In this document: one piece after another, positions 18,651-61,264 of the stretch
Numbering within the stretch: position 1 is the stretch's first letter
Layout of the letters: every line of letters starts with the position of its first letter
Assembly (NCBI GenBank): GCA_030432235.1
Contig: JAUIHT010000002.1
Coordinates: 437,136 to 501,135 of the forward strand
Source of the DNA: Verrucomicrobiia bacterium
GTDB lineage: Bacteria; Verrucomicrobiota; Verrucomicrobiia; Opitutales; Cerasicoccaceae
Direction of reading: 5' to 3'
Length of the DNA: 64,000 bases
Translations under genes and position numbers: made by a program
The notes under the pieces: generated by a model
What the model was told of the DNA's origin: nothing
What the model saw: the letters and a program-made list of their open reading frames with translations, nothing else
The model's database searches: none

Positions 18651-19397
18651 ATGCATTTGAACACACGCTGTCCCTGTTTTTATATCCGCATCGTCCTCCT
18701 GCTGATGCTCATAGGCCTGTTGGCCGTCCAGGTCTTCGGCGCGGAGGAATCGCTGCAGGAACAACTCGATGCCCGCAAGGCGACCTTTCGCGCCCGCACG
18801 CCCCAGGACTTGGCGGAGATGATGGCCGAGGGCAATCGCAAGGTGGCCGAGTCAGGCGTGCTCGAAAGCGCCAAGCAGGTCGGTGACGACGCCCCGGACT
18901 TCACCCTTGAGGACGCCACCGGCCAGCCAGTTTCATTGGCTTCTCTCTTAGAAAAAGGTCCCGTGGTGCTGCTCTGGTACCGAGGTGGCTGGTGCCCCTA
19001 CTGCAACCTGACCCTCCACGCCTACCAGGAGCATCTCGACGAAATCAAATCCGCCGGGGCGACCCTCGTGGCACTGACGCCCGAAGTGCCCGACCAGTCC
19101 CTCTCGACCGCGGAGAAGAACGAGCTGGAGTTCGTCGTTCTCAGCGATACGGGCAACAAGGTGGCCCGGGAGTACGGCGTGGTCTTCGAGCTTCCGCCCG
19201 AAATCCACGAGCTATACCAGAGCCGCTTCGACCTGCATGCCTACAATGGCGACGACTCCGGCACGCTGCCCCTCAGCGCCACCTACGTCATCGCGCCCAA
19301 CGGCAAGATCACCTACGCCTTCCTTGACGCGGACTACACGAACCGCGCCGACCCCGTGGAGGTCATCGAAGAGGTGAAGGCGATCCAGACCGAATAA
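18651..19397 (+). CDS. exported peroxiredoxin-like (AhpC/TSA) protein
   Basis: A 248 aa protein with a signal peptide (IRIVLLLMLIGLLAVQVFGA) and an AhpC/TSA thioredoxin fold: DDAPDFTLEDATGQPVSLAS, VVLLWYRGGWCPYCNLTLHA with a CxxC redox centre, and PLSATYVIAPNGKITYAFLD. The WCPYC form belongs to the peroxiredoxin-like group (AhpC/TSA family 2-like), so it probably reduces peroxides or disulfides in the periplasm. The ATG at 18651 was chosen over a GTG at 18615, since it gives a normal signal peptide. Confidence 0.85.
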   Translation: MHLNTRCPCFYIRIVLLLMLIGLLAVQVFGAEESLQEQLDARKATFRARTPQDLAEMMAEGNRKVAESGVLESAKQVGDDAPDFTLEDATGQPVSLASLLEKGPVVLLWYRGGWCPYCNLTLHAYQEHLDEIKSAGATLVALTPEVPDQSLSTAEKNELEFVVLSDTGNKVAREYGVVFELPPEIHELYQSRFDLHAYNGDDSGTLPLSATYVIAPNGKITYAFLDADYTNRADPVEVIEEVKAIQTE

Positions 19398-21724: not shown

Positions 21725-21778
21725 GGTATCAACGATTCAAACCCATACCCCCCGCGCTTGTCGATGCGAAACGTTGGT

Positions 21779-21855
21779 AAGCTAAAAGCCCAAAGCTCAA
21801 AGCCAAAAGTCGGAATTCCTTTTTGCTTTCAGCTTTTCGCTTTCCGCTTTTAGCT
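21779..21855. repeat. word-repeat palindrome (AAAAGC / AAAGC type)
   Basis: The left arm (21779-21809) reads AAGCTAAAAGCCCAAAGCTC plus further AAAGC words. The right arm (about 21820-21855) is the imperfect complement (CTTTCAGCTTTTCGCTTTCC then GCTTTTAGCT). The word period is 8-9 bp. It lies 8 bp upstream of the EVE gene ATG and within the divergent region with glgB. Confidence 0.72.
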
Positions 21856-21862
21856 CCTCTTC

Positions 21863-23891: not shown

Positions 23892-24082
23892 GATGGGATG
23901 TGAGATTTGTGATGTGAGATATGAGATGGGAGATGTGAGATGCTAGAAAAATTTGATGCAGCAAAGCGATGTGTACGCGCTAACCTCGTATCACATACCT
24001 CATAACTCATATCCCACATCTCCCAACCCATATCTCCCATCCCCTATCTCATATCTCACATCCCATATCCCACATCCCATCC
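23885..24082. repeat. long word-repeat array with inverted halves (GAGATGT / ATCTCAC words)
   Basis: From about 23889 to 23943 the plus strand is a purine-rich run of near-tandem words (GAGATGGGATGTGAGATTTG, then GATGTGAGATATGAGATGGG). From about 23991 to 24080 the words are their complements (CATATCCCACATCTCCCAAC, CCCTATCTCATATCTCACAT). About 47 bp of unrelated sequence lies between. It is the longest array of the family here and fills the gap between the aldehyde dehydrogenase and DUF779 genes. Confidence 0.75.
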
Positions 24083-24083
24083 G

Positions 24084-24455
24084 ATGCCCGAGCGTGTAAA
24101 GATCACCGAAGCGGCGGAGAAGGTCGTCGAGCAGCTCCGCGCCGAGCACGGCCCGCTTTTATTCCACCTCAGCGGCGGCTGCTGCGACGGCTCCGCGCCC
24201 ATGTGCCTGGCGCAAGGGGACTTTCTCATCGGCTCGCGGGATTTAAAACTCGGCACCATCGCGGACTGCCCCTTCTACATCGCCGAGGACACCTTCTCGT
24301 ATTACCGTGCCTGCGAAATCACCGTGGATGTGACACCCGGCCGCGGCGCCAGCTTCTCCCTCGAAATCCCCCTGGACCTGCGCTTCCTCATCCGCTCCCG
24401 CATCCTGAGCGATAAGGAAATCAAAGCCTTGCCGAAGCCGACGCACTCCGCTTAA
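24084..24455 (+). CDS. DUF779 domain protein, aldehyde-dehydrogenase partner
   Basis: A 123 aa protein matching the DUF779 pattern: LLFHLSGGCCDGSAPMCLAQ, DCPFYIAEDTFSYYRACEIT and VDVTPGRGASFSLEIPLDLR. DUF779 genes are recurrently found beside AldB/ExaC aldehyde dehydrogenases, as here, but their biochemical role is not settled; the Cys-rich GGCCDGSAPMC may bind metal (inference). The gene follows the dehydrogenase in the same direction after the word-repeat array, so expression may be joint. Confidence 0.88.
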   Translation: MPERVKITEAAEKVVEQLRAEHGPLLFHLSGGCCDGSAPMCLAQGDFLIGSRDLKLGTIADCPFYIAEDTFSYYRACEITVDVTPGRGASFSLEIPLDLRFLIRSRILSDKEIKALPKPTHSA

Positions 24456-30500: not shown

Positions 30501-33500
30501 GATTGATGATTGTTTTCGAGGCAGAGACCTGACCTGACGTCACATCGAACTGGTAGAGCGTCCTTCTGCCGAAATAATTGTAGAAATACAGGAACTCCCC
30601 GTCATAGGCCAGGCCATCGGGTCCACCGGAGGCCCTCTCAGGCAAGTCAATCGTACGGATGGTCTCGCCGGTCACCGGATCGATCTGAAGGATAGCGCTG
30701 CCCGCGCCCACTATGAAAATCGTAGCCTCCGCGATGCCTTCCGTGGTGTTGCTCAGGACCAGCAACGGCGCCGGTTCAGGTGACGGACGGAGATAAGGAT
30801 CGTCCGCAATCATGACTCCGGCAACCTCCAGCGCGTCGTCCCCAGGTACATTGCGCACGGACAGGCTGACCTCAAGCGGTGAGGTGCCAATGGCGGTATT
30901 GCCGATCTTGATGCTCTTCGTGGCGGTGTCGCCCGACAAAAGATGGAAAAACAGCGAGGATGGCGTGACACTAGCCGTGGGCGCAGGCTTGCCGCTGCCG
31001 CTCAGTGTAATCGCGACCGTGGGATTGTCGGGGTCGTTGGAATTTATCTGCAAAACTGCCTCGTCCAGCCCCGGGCCATCCGGCGTGTAGTGCAATGGCA
31101 TGTCGAAGGACCCACCGGGCGCCATCACAAGAGAGCCGGTCCACTCGACAGCGAACAAGGCGCTGTCCGTGGTCATGGAATTGATCACCAGAACGGATGT
31201 TCCGGTGTTCGCCATGGTTAAGGTCAGTGTCTTTTCGGTCCCCAAATCCACCAAGCCAAAATCGATTGGGCTGGTGGAAACGCTCAGCTCGGGGTCGACG
31301 ACCACCGTAACCGTCAACGGCACGACGAACTCCGGATGGTCCGGGTCGTCCGTCTGTACGACCACATCGACGTGATGATCGCCAGCCGCCAGTGTGGAGG
31401 AGCTGATATTCAAATCGATATCCGACATCCAGTTACCGGACGTGCCGCCGGAGGTTCTCGGCATTGATATCCAACTGGGCGTGATTTCATTGTCCGTCCC
31501 CGACTCCCGGAAAATCACCGACCACCACAACGTTCCATCGCCGTTGTTTTCGAGCCAGAGAGTCTCGCTGGCGGTGAGGCCCTGGTTGACCGTCAGCGCG
31601 ACCGGGGTCACGTCCATGGCTGCATCCGGAAAATCTTCTCCCAGCGCGGAGAGCGGAATCGAGTATGAGTTGCCGGTCTCCTCGTTGGTCGTGAAGGTCA
31701 ACGCACCGCTGACAGCGCCGACGCTTTCCGGGGAGAAGGTCACCTCTATAGGTGCGGACTCCAGCGGCTGTAGCGTCAGGCTATCCGGTGTCATCGAGAA
31801 TGGTGCACCGGTCGCAATGCCGGAGAGCGTCAACTCCTCGCCGCCGAGATTTTCCGCAGTGAGGGAGAGCGTTTTGGTCCGGTCGATACGCACGTCACCA
31901 AAGTTGAGAGCGGACGCGCTCAATTTCAAATTCGGTGGCCCGGTGGGAGCGCTGTCCGGGTTGGCAATCCAGCGGAAGTTGTCGAGGGCCACGCGATTGG
32001 AGCCGCTTACATCACTGGTCAGGTGAACGCGAACACTGGAAATATCCGAAGCGGATGTCGAGAAAGCGCCGGTGGAAAAGACCTCACCGTTCAAAGCGAC
32101 AGTCATTGTATTACTCGCTAGCGAAATATCGATGCGTATCGTAAAAAGCTCATCGAACGGAAACGTCCCCATGTTAGGTCCCGCAAAGGCAACGTCGATG
32201 GTGCCATCAGGCTGAAAGTCGATGCGATGGGTGGACGGAGTATCCAAATGCACGACCAATTCCCCGTCGGTCAATTTATCCACGTACATATCGAACTCGA
32301 TGCGGTACTCATCCGCTCCCCGATTGCCGTTAAACTGAATCTGTTCATAATAACCGCAACAAGCAGATGTGCCGCCTTCGAACTCCAGGCAGGAATCCGC
32401 ATAACCACCGATCGACGTAATAATCTTGGGCGAACCGAAATTGACAGCTCCAATGCCATCCGGCTCGCCGCTGATCGGAGCGCCACCGTCGGCATGAGGC
32501 GGGATGGAAAAGGTGGCGTCGTAGACGACCGTCTGGACTGCATCGACGGCACTGACCGGCATCGCGTAAAGCGCATCCTGGAACGTATCCGCATCGTAGA
32601 CACTTCCCTGTGCCACATAGGCCGCAAGCAATGGTTCCCCGCGCGCGGCCTGGCGCACGAACTCCGCCGCCTCCACTGCGGTCAGTCTGAGGTCCTTGGC
32701 GAAAACCCGAGCGGCCGCGGCAGCCACCTTGGGCGCGGCCATGGAGGTACCGCTGCGCGTGCCGTAGAAACCGCCGGGCTCCGTGCTTTGGATGTCAGCT
32801 CCCGGCGCAAGCAGATCGACCGCGTAGGCATCGTAGTTGGAAAAAGCGGCCAGTGCGCCTGAGCCGTCCGTGGCCCCGACAACGATGAGGTTGTCCAAAT
32901 CGTAAGCCGCCGGATAGACCGGATACTCGGTCAGGGAGGCGCCGGAGTTACCCGCAGCCGCCACGAAAAGCGCTGGGGAGTCTTGCATGGCCTGCTTCAG
33001 GGCCGGCGATGATGCGGAAGCCGCCCAGGACAGGTTGACCACGCGTACCCCGAGCAGGTCCAGATAGCGGATCGCCGCGACGGCATCCGAGACCGTGCCG
33101 AGGCCGCTGGCATCCAAGATACGCGCGGGCACGATATCGAGGCCCGAAGCGCCCTCCCCGCCTTCGGCCACCCCGCAAAGGATGCCCGCGACGTGGGTAC
33201 CGTGCCCGTTGAGGTCGTCCGGCTCGGCGTCATTGTCCACGAAGTCCCAGCCGGCGAGATCGTCGTTGTAGCCGTTGGCATCATCATCCACACCGGCCTG
33301 GCCTTCCACTTCGCTGCCATTGAGAAAAACGTAACCACTCAACGCCGGATGGTCCGCATCGAGCCCCGAGTCGACCAAGCCAATGGACACCCCATAAAGC
33401 GTGGATGACGTCGCGCCGCCGTTGCTTGCCAACACGAGCGGATCGGCAGGCTGGGTATCACAGGTGTACACCAGATAATCCGCTTCGGGAACGAATCCAC

Positions 33501-42207: not shown

Positions 42208-43041
42208 ATGAAAGCCACGCCTATCAACTCGCTGAGCAAACTCTGCATCCACACCATCACGCACAAGCCCTGGAGCCTGCGTGAGGTGGCGGACAACTTC
42301 GCCCGCGTCGGCGTCAGCGGCGTCACCGTCTGGCGGGATGACCTGGCAGGCACCAATCCGGTCGAGGCCGGTAAGCTCCTGCGCAGCCGCGGCCTGGAGA
42401 TTGTTTCCTATTGCCGCGGTGGCTTCTTCCCGGCCAAGGACGCCTCGGACCGCAAGTCCGCCATCTACGACAACGAGCGCACCATCGACGAGGCCGCCGC
42501 CCTCGGCGCCCCGCTGGTCGTGCTCGTCTGTGGCGCCGTGCCCGGGCAATCCCTGGCCCAATCGCGCCGGCAAATCGTCGACGGCATCAACGCCGTGCTC
42601 CCCCGCGCCAAGGAAAAGGGCGTCAAGCTCGCCATCGAGCCGCTTCACCCCATGTACGCCGATGACCGCTCGGCCGTCAACGACTTGAAGACGGCCAACG
42701 ACCTGTGCGAAGAGATCAACTCCGACTACGTCGGCGTGGCCGTCGACGTCTACCACCTGTGGTGGGACCCGCGCCTGGAAGTTGAAATCCGCCGCTGCGG
42801 CCGCATGAAAAAGATTTTCGCCTTCCACATCTGCGACTGGAAAACCCCCACCGAGCACCTCCTGCTGGACCGTGGTCTCATGGGCGAAGGCTGCATCCCC
42901 ATCCGCGAAATTCGCAGCTGGGTCGAAGAATCCGGTTTCCACGGCTACAACGAAGTCGAAATTTTCTCCGAAAAACATTGGGCAGGCGATCAAAGGGATT
43001 TCCTCGATCAAATCGTCCATGCCTATCGGGAGCACAGCTAA
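42208..43041 (+). CDS. TIM-barrel sugar phosphate isomerase/epimerase family protein
   Basis: A 277 aa xylose-isomerase-like protein: SGVTVWRDDLAGTNPVEAGK, LVVLVCGAVPGQSLAQSRRQ, GVKLAIEPLHPMYADDRSAV, VGVAVDVYHLWWDPRL, FAFHICDWKTPTEHLLLDRG and GYNEVEIFSEKHW. Metal-ligand positions (E in IEPLHP, D and H in DVYH, H in FHICDW, E in EVEIF) are all present. It is distinct from the leftward isomerase at 37612. Its place after GH88 suggests isomerisation of a deoxy-uronate or its product; the substrate is not known. Confidence 0.85.
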   Translation: MKATPINSLSKLCIHTITHKPWSLREVADNFARVGVSGVTVWRDDLAGTNPVEAGKLLRSRGLEIVSYCRGGFFPAKDASDRKSAIYDNERTIDEAAALGAPLVVLVCGAVPGQSLAQSRRQIVDGINAVLPRAKEKGVKLAIEPLHPMYADDRSAVNDLKTANDLCEEINSDYVGVAVDVYHLWWDPRLEVEIRRCGRMKKIFAFHICDWKTPTEHLLLDRGLMGEGCIPIREIRSWVEESGFHGYNEVEIFSEKHWAGDQRDFLDQIVHAYREHS

Positions 43042-43109
43042 GCTGTGGCCGGTTATTCTGTTTATCAGTATCCAGTTGCTCCGTTCATCATTATAAACCT
43101 TCGAGAATT
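43042..43109. repeat. left word-repeat flank of the four-helix-bundle gene
   Basis: The stretch contains GGTTATTCTGTTTATCAGTA and TCCAGTTGCTCCG, whose complement shares words (AACAGAATA, ACGGA) with the right flank at 43476-43518. The pair therefore forms imperfect inverted flanks around the small gene. Confidence 0.5.
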
Positions 43110-43475
43110 ATGGCTATCATTCGCGACTTTGAAGAAATCGATGCATGGAAAGAAGCGCGGACATTGGTTAAGAGCGTGTACCGCATTTGCAAGGAGGGCG
43201 AACTGTCCAAGGACTTCGGGTTACGCGATCAAATCCGGCGCTCTGTCGTATCAATCAGCTCCAATATAGCAGAAGGCTTCGGACGTGAAGGCTCAACGGA
43301 ATTTGCCCGCTTTCTACGTATAGCCAAAGGCTCCGCATGCGAGTTCCGTTCCCAGCTTTGGAACCTTCTGGACGCAGAATACATCGACATCCCGACCTTC
43401 GAACAACTCCGTTCAGATGCGTTGAAAACTGAACGCCTCATCGGAGGATTCATCAACTATCTGTCGAAACAATAA
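43110..43475 (+). CDS. four-helix-bundle protein (S23 / IVS-encoded protein family)
   Basis: A 121 aa protein that matches the canonical family along its length: FEEIDAWKEARTLVKSVYRI, FGLRDQIRRSVVSISSNIAE, GFGREGSTEFARFLRIAKGS and ACEFRSQLWNLLDAEYI. The family is named from genes inside 23S rRNA intervening sequences of Leptospira and Coxiella; its biochemical role is unknown. Here it sits in the middle of an otherwise metabolic operon and is bordered on both sides by word-repeat sequence, looking like an inserted cassette. The ATG at 43110 gives the normal N-terminus; the longer upstream frame is the 3' end of the TIM-barrel gene read out of frame. Confidence 0.92.
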   Translation: MAIIRDFEEIDAWKEARTLVKSVYRICKEGELSKDFGLRDQIRRSVVSISSNIAEGFGREGSTEFARFLRIAKGSACEFRSQLWNLLDAEYIDIPTFEQLRSDALKTERLIGGFINYLSKQ

Positions 43476-43518
43476 CCGACAAACGGAATACGGAATAACA
43501 GAATACCGAACAACCCTT
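43476..43518. repeat. right word-repeat flank of the four-helix-bundle gene
   Basis: The whole gap between the stop codon and the next ATG is near-tandem words: AACCGACAAACGGAATACGG, AATAACAGAATACCGAACAA. The words partly complement the left flank (43042-43109) and recur at 42160-42195 and 44668-44712. Confidence 0.55.
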
Positions 43519-44667
43519 ATGAAAATCCACGAAATCGGCATCATCATGAACGGCGTCACTGGACGCATGGGCACGAACCAGCACCTGCTGCGTTCCGTCA
43601 ACGCCATTATGGAGCAAGGTGGCGTGAAGGTATCACCGAACGAGGTGATCATGCCCAAGCCCATCCTGGTAGGCCGCAACGAGAACAAGCTCCAGGAGCT
43701 CTGCGCCCGCAGTCTGGTCAAAGACTACACGACTGACCTGGACAGCGTGATGAAGGACCCGGCCTACCCGGTCTACTTCGACGCGCAGACGACCCTGCGT
43801 CGCTTCGCCGCGGTCAAGCAGGCCGCCGAGGCCGGCAAGCACGTTTACTGCGAAAAGCCGACGGCCATCACGACCGAGGACGCCGTCAAGCTCTACGAGA
43901 TTTGCCGCGACGCCGGCGTAAAGAACGGCGTGGTGCAGGACAAGCTCTGGCTGCCCGGCCTGCTCAAGCTCAAGCGTCTGATGGAGTGCGGCTTCTTCGG
44001 GGAAATCCTCAGCGTGCGCGGCGAGTTCGGCTACTGGGTCTATGAAGGCCACAGCATCCCGGCCCAGCGCCCGTCCTGGAACTACCGCAAGGAAGACGGC
44101 GGCGGCATGGCCGTCGACATGCTTTGCCACTTCCGCTACGTGGTGGACAACCTCTTCGGCAATGTCACCGGCGTCAACTGCCTGGCCGCCACCCACATCC
44201 CCGAGCGCGTGGACGAAGAGGGCAAGCCCTACAAGTGCACCGCCGACGACAGTTGCTACACCACCTTCGAGCTCGATAACGGCGTCGTCGTTCACATCAA
44301 CGCCTCGTGGAACGTCCGCGTGCGCCGCGACGACCTGTTGACTCTCCAGGTGGACGGCACCCGCGGCTCCGCCGTGGCCGGCCTGCGCGACGTCACCATC
44401 CAGCACTACGGCAACACGCCCAAGCCGGTGTGGAACCCCGACGTCGATCAGCCCATCGACTTCTTCGAGGACTGGTCCAAGGTGCCCGCGCAAGAAGCCT
44501 ACGACAACGCCTTCAAGGTGCAGTGGGAAATGTTCCTCCGCCATGTCGTGCTCGACGAGCCCTTCCGCTGGAACCTGCTCGAAGGCGCCAAGGGCGTCCA
44601 GCTCGCCGAGCTCGGCCTCAAGAGCTCCGAGGAACGCAAGTGGATGGACGTGCCCGCGCTCGGATAA
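43519..44667 (+). CDS. Gfo/Idh/MocA family oxidoreductase
   Basis: A 382 aa NAD(P)-dependent sugar/polyol dehydrogenase-like protein. The N-terminal Rossmann fold carries IGIIMNGVTGRMGTNQHLL, with a longer than usual first loop. The catalytic motif is VYCEKPTAITTEDAVKLYEI, followed by QDKLWLPGLLKLKRLMECGF, FGEILSVRGEFGYWVYEG and GGGMAVDMLCHFRYVVDNLF. It is in the uronate operon between the four-helix-bundle cassette and the SDR gene (21 bp gap). It probably oxidises a sugar-acid intermediate; the substrate is unassigned. Confidence 0.88.
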   Translation: MKIHEIGIIMNGVTGRMGTNQHLLRSVNAIMEQGGVKVSPNEVIMPKPILVGRNENKLQELCARSLVKDYTTDLDSVMKDPAYPVYFDAQTTLRRFAAVKQAAEAGKHVYCEKPTAITTEDAVKLYEICRDAGVKNGVVQDKLWLPGLLKLKRLMECGFFGEILSVRGEFGYWVYEGHSIPAQRPSWNYRKEDGGGMAVDMLCHFRYVVDNLFGNVTGVNCLAATHIPERVDEEGKPYKCTADDSCYTTFELDNGVVVHINASWNVRVRRDDLLTLQVDGTRGSAVAGLRDVTIQHYGNTPKPVWNPDVDQPIDFFEDWSKVPAQEAYDNAFKVQWEMFLRHVVLDEPFRWNLLEGAKGVQLAELGLKSSEERKWMDVPALG

Positions 44668-44712
44668 CCGAGAACCGAAAACTGAGAAATGAAAACCGAA
44701 AACTCTTCAAAG
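44668..44712. repeat. word-repeat sequence spanning the SDR start codon
   Basis: Near-tandem ACCGAGAACCGAAAACTGAG and AAATGAAAACCGAAAACTC run from the stop of the Gfo/Idh/MocA gene through the SDR ATG (44689). The first codons of the SDR (MKTENSSK) are therefore encoded by repeat sequence. Confidence 0.5.
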
Positions 44713-61098: not shown

Positions 61099-61127
61099 GG
61101 AGCCCGGAAAGTCGAGGGGGAAAAGAA

Positions 61128-61264
61128 TGAACGATAAAAGATGAAAGCAGAAAGATGAAAAACCAACGATGGCAACAAACTGACCTTCATACCGGTGTAG
61201 GACGCTTGGTGAACCTTATGCCCTGTCTTTACTTCATCTTTCTGCTTTCATCTTTTATCGTTCA
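61128..61264. repeat. perfect 32-bp inverted repeat (word type GAAAGATGAA), 73-bp spacer
   Basis: The left arm 61128-61159 begins TGAACGATAAAAGATGAAAG. The right arm 61233-61264 is its exact reverse complement, and its last three bases are the stop codon of the TVP38-type gene. The left arm starts 30 bp upstream of the shc ATG. A transcript running from that gene into shc would fold a long stem. Confidence 0.85.

Follow-up and report, generated by a model that had tools for sequence, protein, structure and literature searches.

We find that an S23 gene in a sugar-acid operon of a Verrucomicrobiia bacterium, together with the inverted word tracts (arms) that border it, very probably forms a mobile cassette whose ends are the arms. 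A mobile cassette is the most likely reading because complementary arms are general among S23 loci, empty sites exist, word and protein are inherited together, and gene-less word pairs occur. The arms, their period, the empty sites, the joint inheritance of words and proteins at different sites and in different phyla, and the word-matched gene-less copies are established insofar as a comparison of sequences can establish them. The whole statement, in which the cassette also gives rise to gene-less derivatives and S23 binds the stem of its own word and recruits an enzyme, we regard as somewhat better supported than not. One part of it, S23 as the arm-specific factor that drives dispersal, is an inference on which we are evenly divided (movement was not observed, and the enzyme is unidentified).

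The window, by which we mean the whole stretch of 64,000 nucleotides analyzed here, encodes a 121-residue protein of the S23 family (PF05635, 23S rRNA IVP / TIGR02436 four helix bundle; 43110–43475, forward strand). It scores 109.5 bits against the Pfam family, meeting the curated cut-off of 33.8, and 107.4 bits against the NCBIfam model. An AlphaFold2 model of the protein (pLDDT 96.2) is a four-helix bundle, as required of the family fold. The gene lies between an AP_endonuc_2 TIM-barrel gene (42208–43041) and a Gfo/Idh/MocA gene (43519–44667), both on the forward strand, and the original prediction of an S23-type gene within a metabolic operon is thus confirmed. A 24-nt imperfect inverted pair encloses the open reading frame, as do the terminal inverted repeats of an rRNA intervening sequence (IVS): the upstream arm (43054–43077) is complementary to the downstream arm (43482–43505), whose word tract runs on to ∼43513. 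The score of this pair was reached by 7 of 2000 dinucleotide shuffles (2 of 2000 under lenient scoring) and by none of 643 same-geometry segment pairs elsewhere in the window. Two complementary words had been proposed for the flanks, of which AACAGAATA is matched exactly (TATTCTGTT at 43054), whereas CCGAACAA matches at only 6/8 positions. The flanks had also been described as near-tandem. Periodicity at 7–8 nt is weak in the downstream tract (autocorrelation 0.58 and 0.53), and the upstream tract, with values of 0.37 and 0.50, is more degenerate still. As RNA, the window copy does not fold better than shuffled sequences (z −0.81, with 23 of 100 shuffles folding equally well). The window copy is among the weaker examples; most other copies in the genome, as well as relatives, show the pattern more clearly.

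Two further features of the operon were observed. A palindrome with a 7-bp stem, CACAGCTAAGCTGTG, overlies the stop codon of the TIM-barrel gene (43033–43047). As a general feature of the cassettes, such palindromes were rejected: stems of at least 7 bp are enriched (8/97 cassettes versus 4/410 control stops), yet they remain a minority trait. Comparison of L012 and L024 revealed a matched two-sided change in the stop-codon palindrome of the upstream gene (CACTGG..CCAGTG versus CACAGG..CCTGTG). A periodicity scan located a solo tract of ACCGAAAAC-type words at 44661–44703, one gap further along this operon; it spans the stop/start gap between the Gfo/Idh/MocA gene and an SDR gene and is accompanied by a palindrome, CTCGGATAACCGAG, over the stop codon. 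The matching gap in genome G006 holds a short S23 remnant (L021).

The genome from which the window derives has eight PF05635 matches. Seven have inverted word flanks (flank complementarity p ≤ 0.02 for each), with a word private to each copy: AAAGC, GGGAGATA, GATGAAA, TTAACGC, GGGCGAA, GAATAACG, and the window's own. The eighth match (L008) scores under the family cut-off and is arm-less (p 0.45). We gathered 151 S23 loci from the bacterium's own family and phylum, from named genomes of many phyla, and from plasmids; L020 was left out (odd reading frame), giving 150 loci. Among the first 111 loci (L108 was excluded for a short flank), 75 exceed the 95th percentile of swapped flanks, compared with 17 of 209 other genes at the same loci, and the 99th percentile is passed by 41 in inverted versus 9 in direct orientation. 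Against dinucleotide shuffles, 118 of the 150 loci have complementary flanks at p ≤ 0.05 and 98 at p ≤ 0.01; after merging of 10 near-duplicates the counts are 109 and 90 of 140. In six genomes, where the test took in 38 of the 39 listed S23 matches, arms are significant at p ≤ 0.05 versus base-shuffled flanks in 32 of 38 loci. An enrichment of flank words over other genes, one of the checks originally suggested, was thus found. The absence of significant arms from 32 of the 150 loci counts against the cassette reading. The median arm length is 30.5 nt, and of 169 arms that measure 24 nt or more, 112 have a best period of 7 and 39 one of 8 (20 and 27 for shuffled arms). The family itself is present in 220 of 288 sampled genomes of the phylum, with up to at least 16 matches each, and in none of 14 control genomes.

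Replication slippage could place repeats beside a gene by chance, and tandem heptamers are described, in the part of PMC6344855 available to us, as the most abundant periodic repeats in prokaryote intergenic regions. Slippage does not, however, make two arms ∼400 nt apart complementary, and as an explanation it is contradicted by the inverted pairing at 118 of 150 loci; it explains neither the empty sites nor the words inherited with the protein; we give it practically no weight.

Some observations lie at the margins of the family. L008, L023, and L022 are S23-like genes that lie below or barely over the Pfam cut-off and lack significant inverted flanks; an upstream neighbor seems to be common to L008 and L023, and all of these genes may be resident arm-less paralogs. 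Words of GCGCAAAGACGCAAAG / CGCAGAGA type occur without S23 at 18800–19346 of L227 and in the gaps of L115 and L120, and are perhaps another word family of the same kind. Long AAAAGCT runs are found in L181.

Empty sites bear out the original view of the gene as an inserted cassette: they were found in 28 relatives at the window site and at four plasmid sites, and presence/absence alleles at one site are what is expected of a mobile element. For the window site we compared 30 of 41 matching loci and, separately, genome G056, ten others being left out. In 28 relatives, a count that excludes the window's own copy and L130 (second gene not found), the TIM-barrel and Gfo/Idh/MocA genes adjoin each other at a distance of at most ∼250 nt with no S23 between them. 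These relatives are more distant from the window strain and their gaps have diverged. An allele lacking exactly 43042–43518, the form of empty site originally called for, was not found among the relatives compared, because the genomes include no close relative of the window strain. The same site is also occupied in G056 (L036) by an S23 that is 66% identical, with other words that are again paired; its right arm (L036/L348) is expanded, with a 14-nt AAACCGTAAACTGGT-type unit present about six times. Among the empty-site relatives, L118 has a solo tract of AACTGAAAACTG-type words between the two host genes, and L142 has solo AATTAGGAATT-type and CACTGATCACTA-type tracts there.

Nostoc and Calothrix plasmids hold occupied and empty alleles at four sites, each in the gap from one stop to the following start, and the S23 proteins at all four exceed the Pfam cut-off. 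At site 1, L177 and L183 carry an insert of 420 nt and L182 one of 602 nt; L174 and L184–L187 are empty (TAG, 3 nt, ATG), and L188 has another small gene. The 3-nt spacer is replaced on insertion. At site 2, L174 alone is occupied (505 nt, ATG duplicated), eight others being empty, and there the flanks of L174 and L177 are 99.7% (left) and 91.7% (right) identical. Two Calothrix plasmids carry S23 at site 3, which is empty in three relatives, and site 4 is occupied in L192, where S23 is antisense, and empty in the three relatives compared. Clean insertion edges are seen only at some sites, the relatives for sites 3 and 4 being too diverged to tell. A host gene of the ordinary resident kind, passed on vertically and equipped with regulatory hairpins, would fit those sites that several relatives have in common (e.g. 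the site of L001, L011, L012, L018, L024, and L015), and also L008 and similar sub-cut-off paralogs, which are arm-less and look resident. One Nostoc operon, with both empty and occupied alleles, already contradicts this explanation, and it is at odds with the empty sites, with the existence of gene-less copies, and with S23 proteins 75–80% identical across phyla beside different neighbors. We consider this explanation barely tenable.

The mobile cassette reading is further supported by the joint inheritance of word and protein. Using pairs of loci without similar neighbors, with a strict filter against same-site pairs such as L013/L014, we find that word similarity in the same orientation rises from 0.18 below 45% S23 identity (n = 3149) to 0.37 at 65% or above (n = 19), whereas in the opposite orientation it stays flat at 0.15–0.16. 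For S23 pairs of at least 60% identity (n = 52) the observed similarity was reached in none of 2000 permutations; L165/L167, 69% identical with a word score of 0.15, is an exception to the trend. S23 of Desulfacinum hydrothermale (L040) is 79.7% identical to that of a Planctomycete MAG (L048), and both have TGGTTTCTGGTT-type words. L042 and L044, from delta-proteobacterial MAGs at one common site, are 75–76% identical to L048 and have the same kind of word. S23 at a site named malate dehydrogenase by us from sequence (L035) is 78.8% identical to the window-site copy L036. The same element is thus found at different sites, as expected of a mobile element, and for L040/L048 in different phyla. 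At the site of L001 the words of the relatives differ and the arms are still paired.

Gene-less inverted pairs of similar words are dispersed in S23-bearing DNA. The window contains three: one at 21777–21858 of AAAGC type, like S23 copy L001 (own arm score 26, best other genome 12); one at 23894–24081 with a word like that of L003, located after a stop whose last base is 23891 and before an ATG at 24084; and one at 61127–61264, which has ACGATAAAAGATGAAAG in common with a flank of L004 and its best arm score with L007. Five base shuffles of the window gave none. Measured on spaced stretches of each genome, seven S23-bearing genomes have 14 pairs per 1.0 Mb, and seven genomes without S23 have 3 per 1.0 Mb (p 0.013). 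The pairs in the S23-free genomes G183 (2) and G007 (1) count against a dependence on S23, as does their absence from 100 kb of G177, which has eight S23 genes. For 17 S23-less pairs from six genomes, the best match is an S23 arm of the same genome in 11 (3.2 expected, p 3e-5; 7 of 9 in G000 and 4 of 8 in the five others). The remaining 6 match best elsewhere, among them a G214 pair whose best match is an S23 arm of G194, a same-family relative. The shuffles behind the window scan, the own-arm test, and the six-genome arm test keep base composition only. Nostoc L182 holds a gene-less copy of ∼180 nt that has the cassette's own word and interrupts the S23 frame. A scan of 1.16 Mb of S23-bearing DNA for arms 250–3000 nt apart recovered the S23 cassette of L197; other wide-arm pairs look like combinations of neighboring copies. 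One of these, at 31778–32643 of L197, surrounds an annotated DNA-binding protein.

Dispersed gene-less pairs with the repeats of a gene's flank are a hallmark of RAYT/REPIN systems, and the 11 of 17 own-genome matches make the original comparison with REP-associated transposases an apt one. As far as the accessible portion of PMC3116915 describes them, these systems likewise combine a gene with bordering repeats, gene-less inverted pairs of the same repeats, and cognate specificity. The cassette differs in having tandem heptamers as arms and, in place of a Y1 transposase, an S23 four-helix bundle (PMC3116915, same portion). S23 is the sole gene of the window element, and the RAYT requirement for a Y1 (HUH) transposase is not met.

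Word hairpins might instead be moved in trans by another transposase (e.g. an IS200/IS605-like Y1), with S23 as cargo only. Y1 genes are present in 6 of 10 genomes of the family, and in Nostoc four gene-less copies with common ends have GATA directly adjoining on one side; the only site with an intact allele shows no clear target duplication. The GATA-abutting copies recall the target use of IS200/IS605 elements. Against this, G001, G006, and G008 carry S23 without a Y1 match, the similarity of words tracks the S23 protein in a way not easily explained by cargo alone, and 10 of 12 tested Y1 loci of the family (three too near a contig edge and five more were left out) carry their own inverted flanks, different in kind to the eye. 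Judging by these Y1 flanks, the two look like separate hairpin systems, and movement by Y1 in trans appears improbable to us. Family Y1 genes L299–L302, L305–L307, and L311–L313 have long inverted flanks and are RAYT/REP-like. A common reverse transcriptase (RT) acting in trans was rejected: PF00078 is found in 7 of 10 family genomes (12 matches), but G001 and G005 have S23 without an RT match. Four of the 12 were viewed, two being of group II intron type and two of retron type (by eye, without a classifier). The RT matches of the window genome lie on contigs C38 and C10, and the window on C39.

Cassettes are found in core operons (atpA|atpG, sdhA|sdhB, cysD|cysN, and sufC|sufB, gene names assigned by us from sequence), and in 97 of 118 arm-bearing loci a same-strand frame ends at most 160 nt upstream (median 51 nt). 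On cyanobacterial plasmids, S23 lies antisense between nrdB and nrdA in L178, beside ABC-transporter genes in L179, and between cas6 and cas4 in L181. Judged by longest open frames, placement is co-directional in 66 of 95 loci, and in 7 of 95 both neighbors are on the opposite strand; one of the seven (L029) is a miscall, and L178 and L192 are antisense by annotation.

Co-directional placement as the rule would suit an mRNA counterpart of the 23S rRNA IVS, in which the arms form an RNA stem and an RNase III cut removes the S23 segment from the operon transcript. Harm to the host genes would then be limited, movement rare, and the arms kept by selection on RNA. The Coxiella burnetii IVS has an S23 ORF in a 28-bp terminal stem of 23S rRNA and is excised by RNase III; it has been called selfish, and its authors cite the idea of a mobile element with the ORF helping mobility (PMC4990558, seen in part). 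Family and plan are alike in that PF05635 and an ORF within terminal inverted repeats forming a long stem are common to both, and so is size (∼430 bp for the IVS versus ∼420–500 bp for S23 cassettes). Two further results favor this explanation: the L012 transcript folds by its arms (z −4.13), and five of six same-site ortholog pairs conserve their arms better than four-fold sites. Arm identity is 89–100% versus 61–73% at four-fold sites in three of these pairs and 68–86% versus 26–43% in two, the remaining pair showing no difference; the arm values were taken from the best local alignment between repeats and tend to be too high. The loci with both neighbors on the opposite strand do not fit, same-word gene-less pairs would still require a mechanism of dispersal, and the loci compared include no rRNA-located copy. 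We therefore regard RNase III excision from mRNA as unlikely on its own, though not to be dismissed, and it is compatible with a mobile cassette. The window element itself lies in an operon gap between two protein genes and not in 23S rRNA, as an IVS would. Heptamer arms, private words, and gene-less relatives go unmentioned for the Coxiella IVS in the part of PMC4990558 at hand. The S23 cassette works like both an IVS and a RAYT/REPIN, and the window element falls under neither, because it lacks the rRNA location of the one and the transposase of the other.

S23/IVP proteins have no known function according to the same partial source (PMC4990558). Nothing in Pfam, NCBIfam, PADLOC, or PHROGs matched the window protein beyond S23-type families; PADLOC and PHROGs gave no match at all, and the phage collection gave no tblastn match. 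The closest folds are XCC0516 (2gsc; TM 0.82–0.88) and BT_0352 (2rld; TM 0.76–0.80), followed by Avd of diversity-generating retroelements (DGRs), alone and in the DGR ribonucleoprotein (4dwl and 8ub7; TM 0.76 and 0.72). Trp-13, Gln-41, Ser-48, Asn-52 to Phe-57, Ser-75, and Glu-78 are invariant in 56 sequences. Avd has the same fold as S23, and it binds RNA. The neighbors of the window S23 are metabolic, namely the TIM-barrel and Gfo/Idh/MocA genes, and with no RT, template repeat, or variable repeat known beside it, the adjacent RT expected of a DGR is missing. A resemblance of PF05635 to Avd has been remarked upon before (PMC10053308, consulted in part).

In the mechanism we propose, a cassette would consist of a single S23 gene with an inverted word tract on either side; the word is short, most often a heptamer, and varies from copy to copy. 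These two arms would mark the ends of the element and could pair to form a stem around the gene. Cassettes would settle in narrow stop-to-start gaps, mostly co-directional with their neighbors, and gene-less inverted pairs of the same or a similar word would be non-autonomous derivatives. S23, an Avd-like four-helix bundle without a recognized catalytic domain, is inferred to bind the stem of its own arms, as RNA or single-stranded DNA; this rests on analogy with Avd. A host or unlinked enzyme brought in by S23 may then copy or move the element, a step that is likewise inferred and could involve DNA or RNA. The suggestion that protein and flanks form a small mobile element is thus largely supported, without evidence that S23 moves it.

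Cassettes with word flanks outside rRNA have, in the open-access literature, no description that we could find; preprints and most subscription journals were not covered. The STRR of cyanobacteria are intergenic tandem heptamers. STRR were reportedly described by Mazel in 1990, and Elhai is said to have described small dispersed repeats in 2008. The known intergenic tandem heptamers resemble the arms in their period of 7, intergenic location, occurrence in many phyla, and differing words (PMC6344855; TAACTGA, PMC4679880), and in the parts of these two papers that were accessible no link to S23 was found. The TAACTGA repeat is not explained here, because none of 150 S23 loci had flanks holding two copies of it. 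A broader proposal, which remains speculative and which we think rather less probable than its opposite, is that S23 represents a class of mobile element without its own recombinase. Such a protein would recognize its own heptamer word, perhaps in seven-nucleotide steps, and spread cassettes and gene-less hairpins, making it the source of much unexplained intergenic heptamer periodicity, with rRNA IVSs as one landing site. Taken together, an unexplained class of bacterial repeats gains a candidate source in S23 cassettes. The link makes both partners testable, predicting for S23 a cognate nucleic acid (its own arm) and dependants (gene-less pairs of the same word), and the other-word arms in the same cell provide a built-in control for its specificity.
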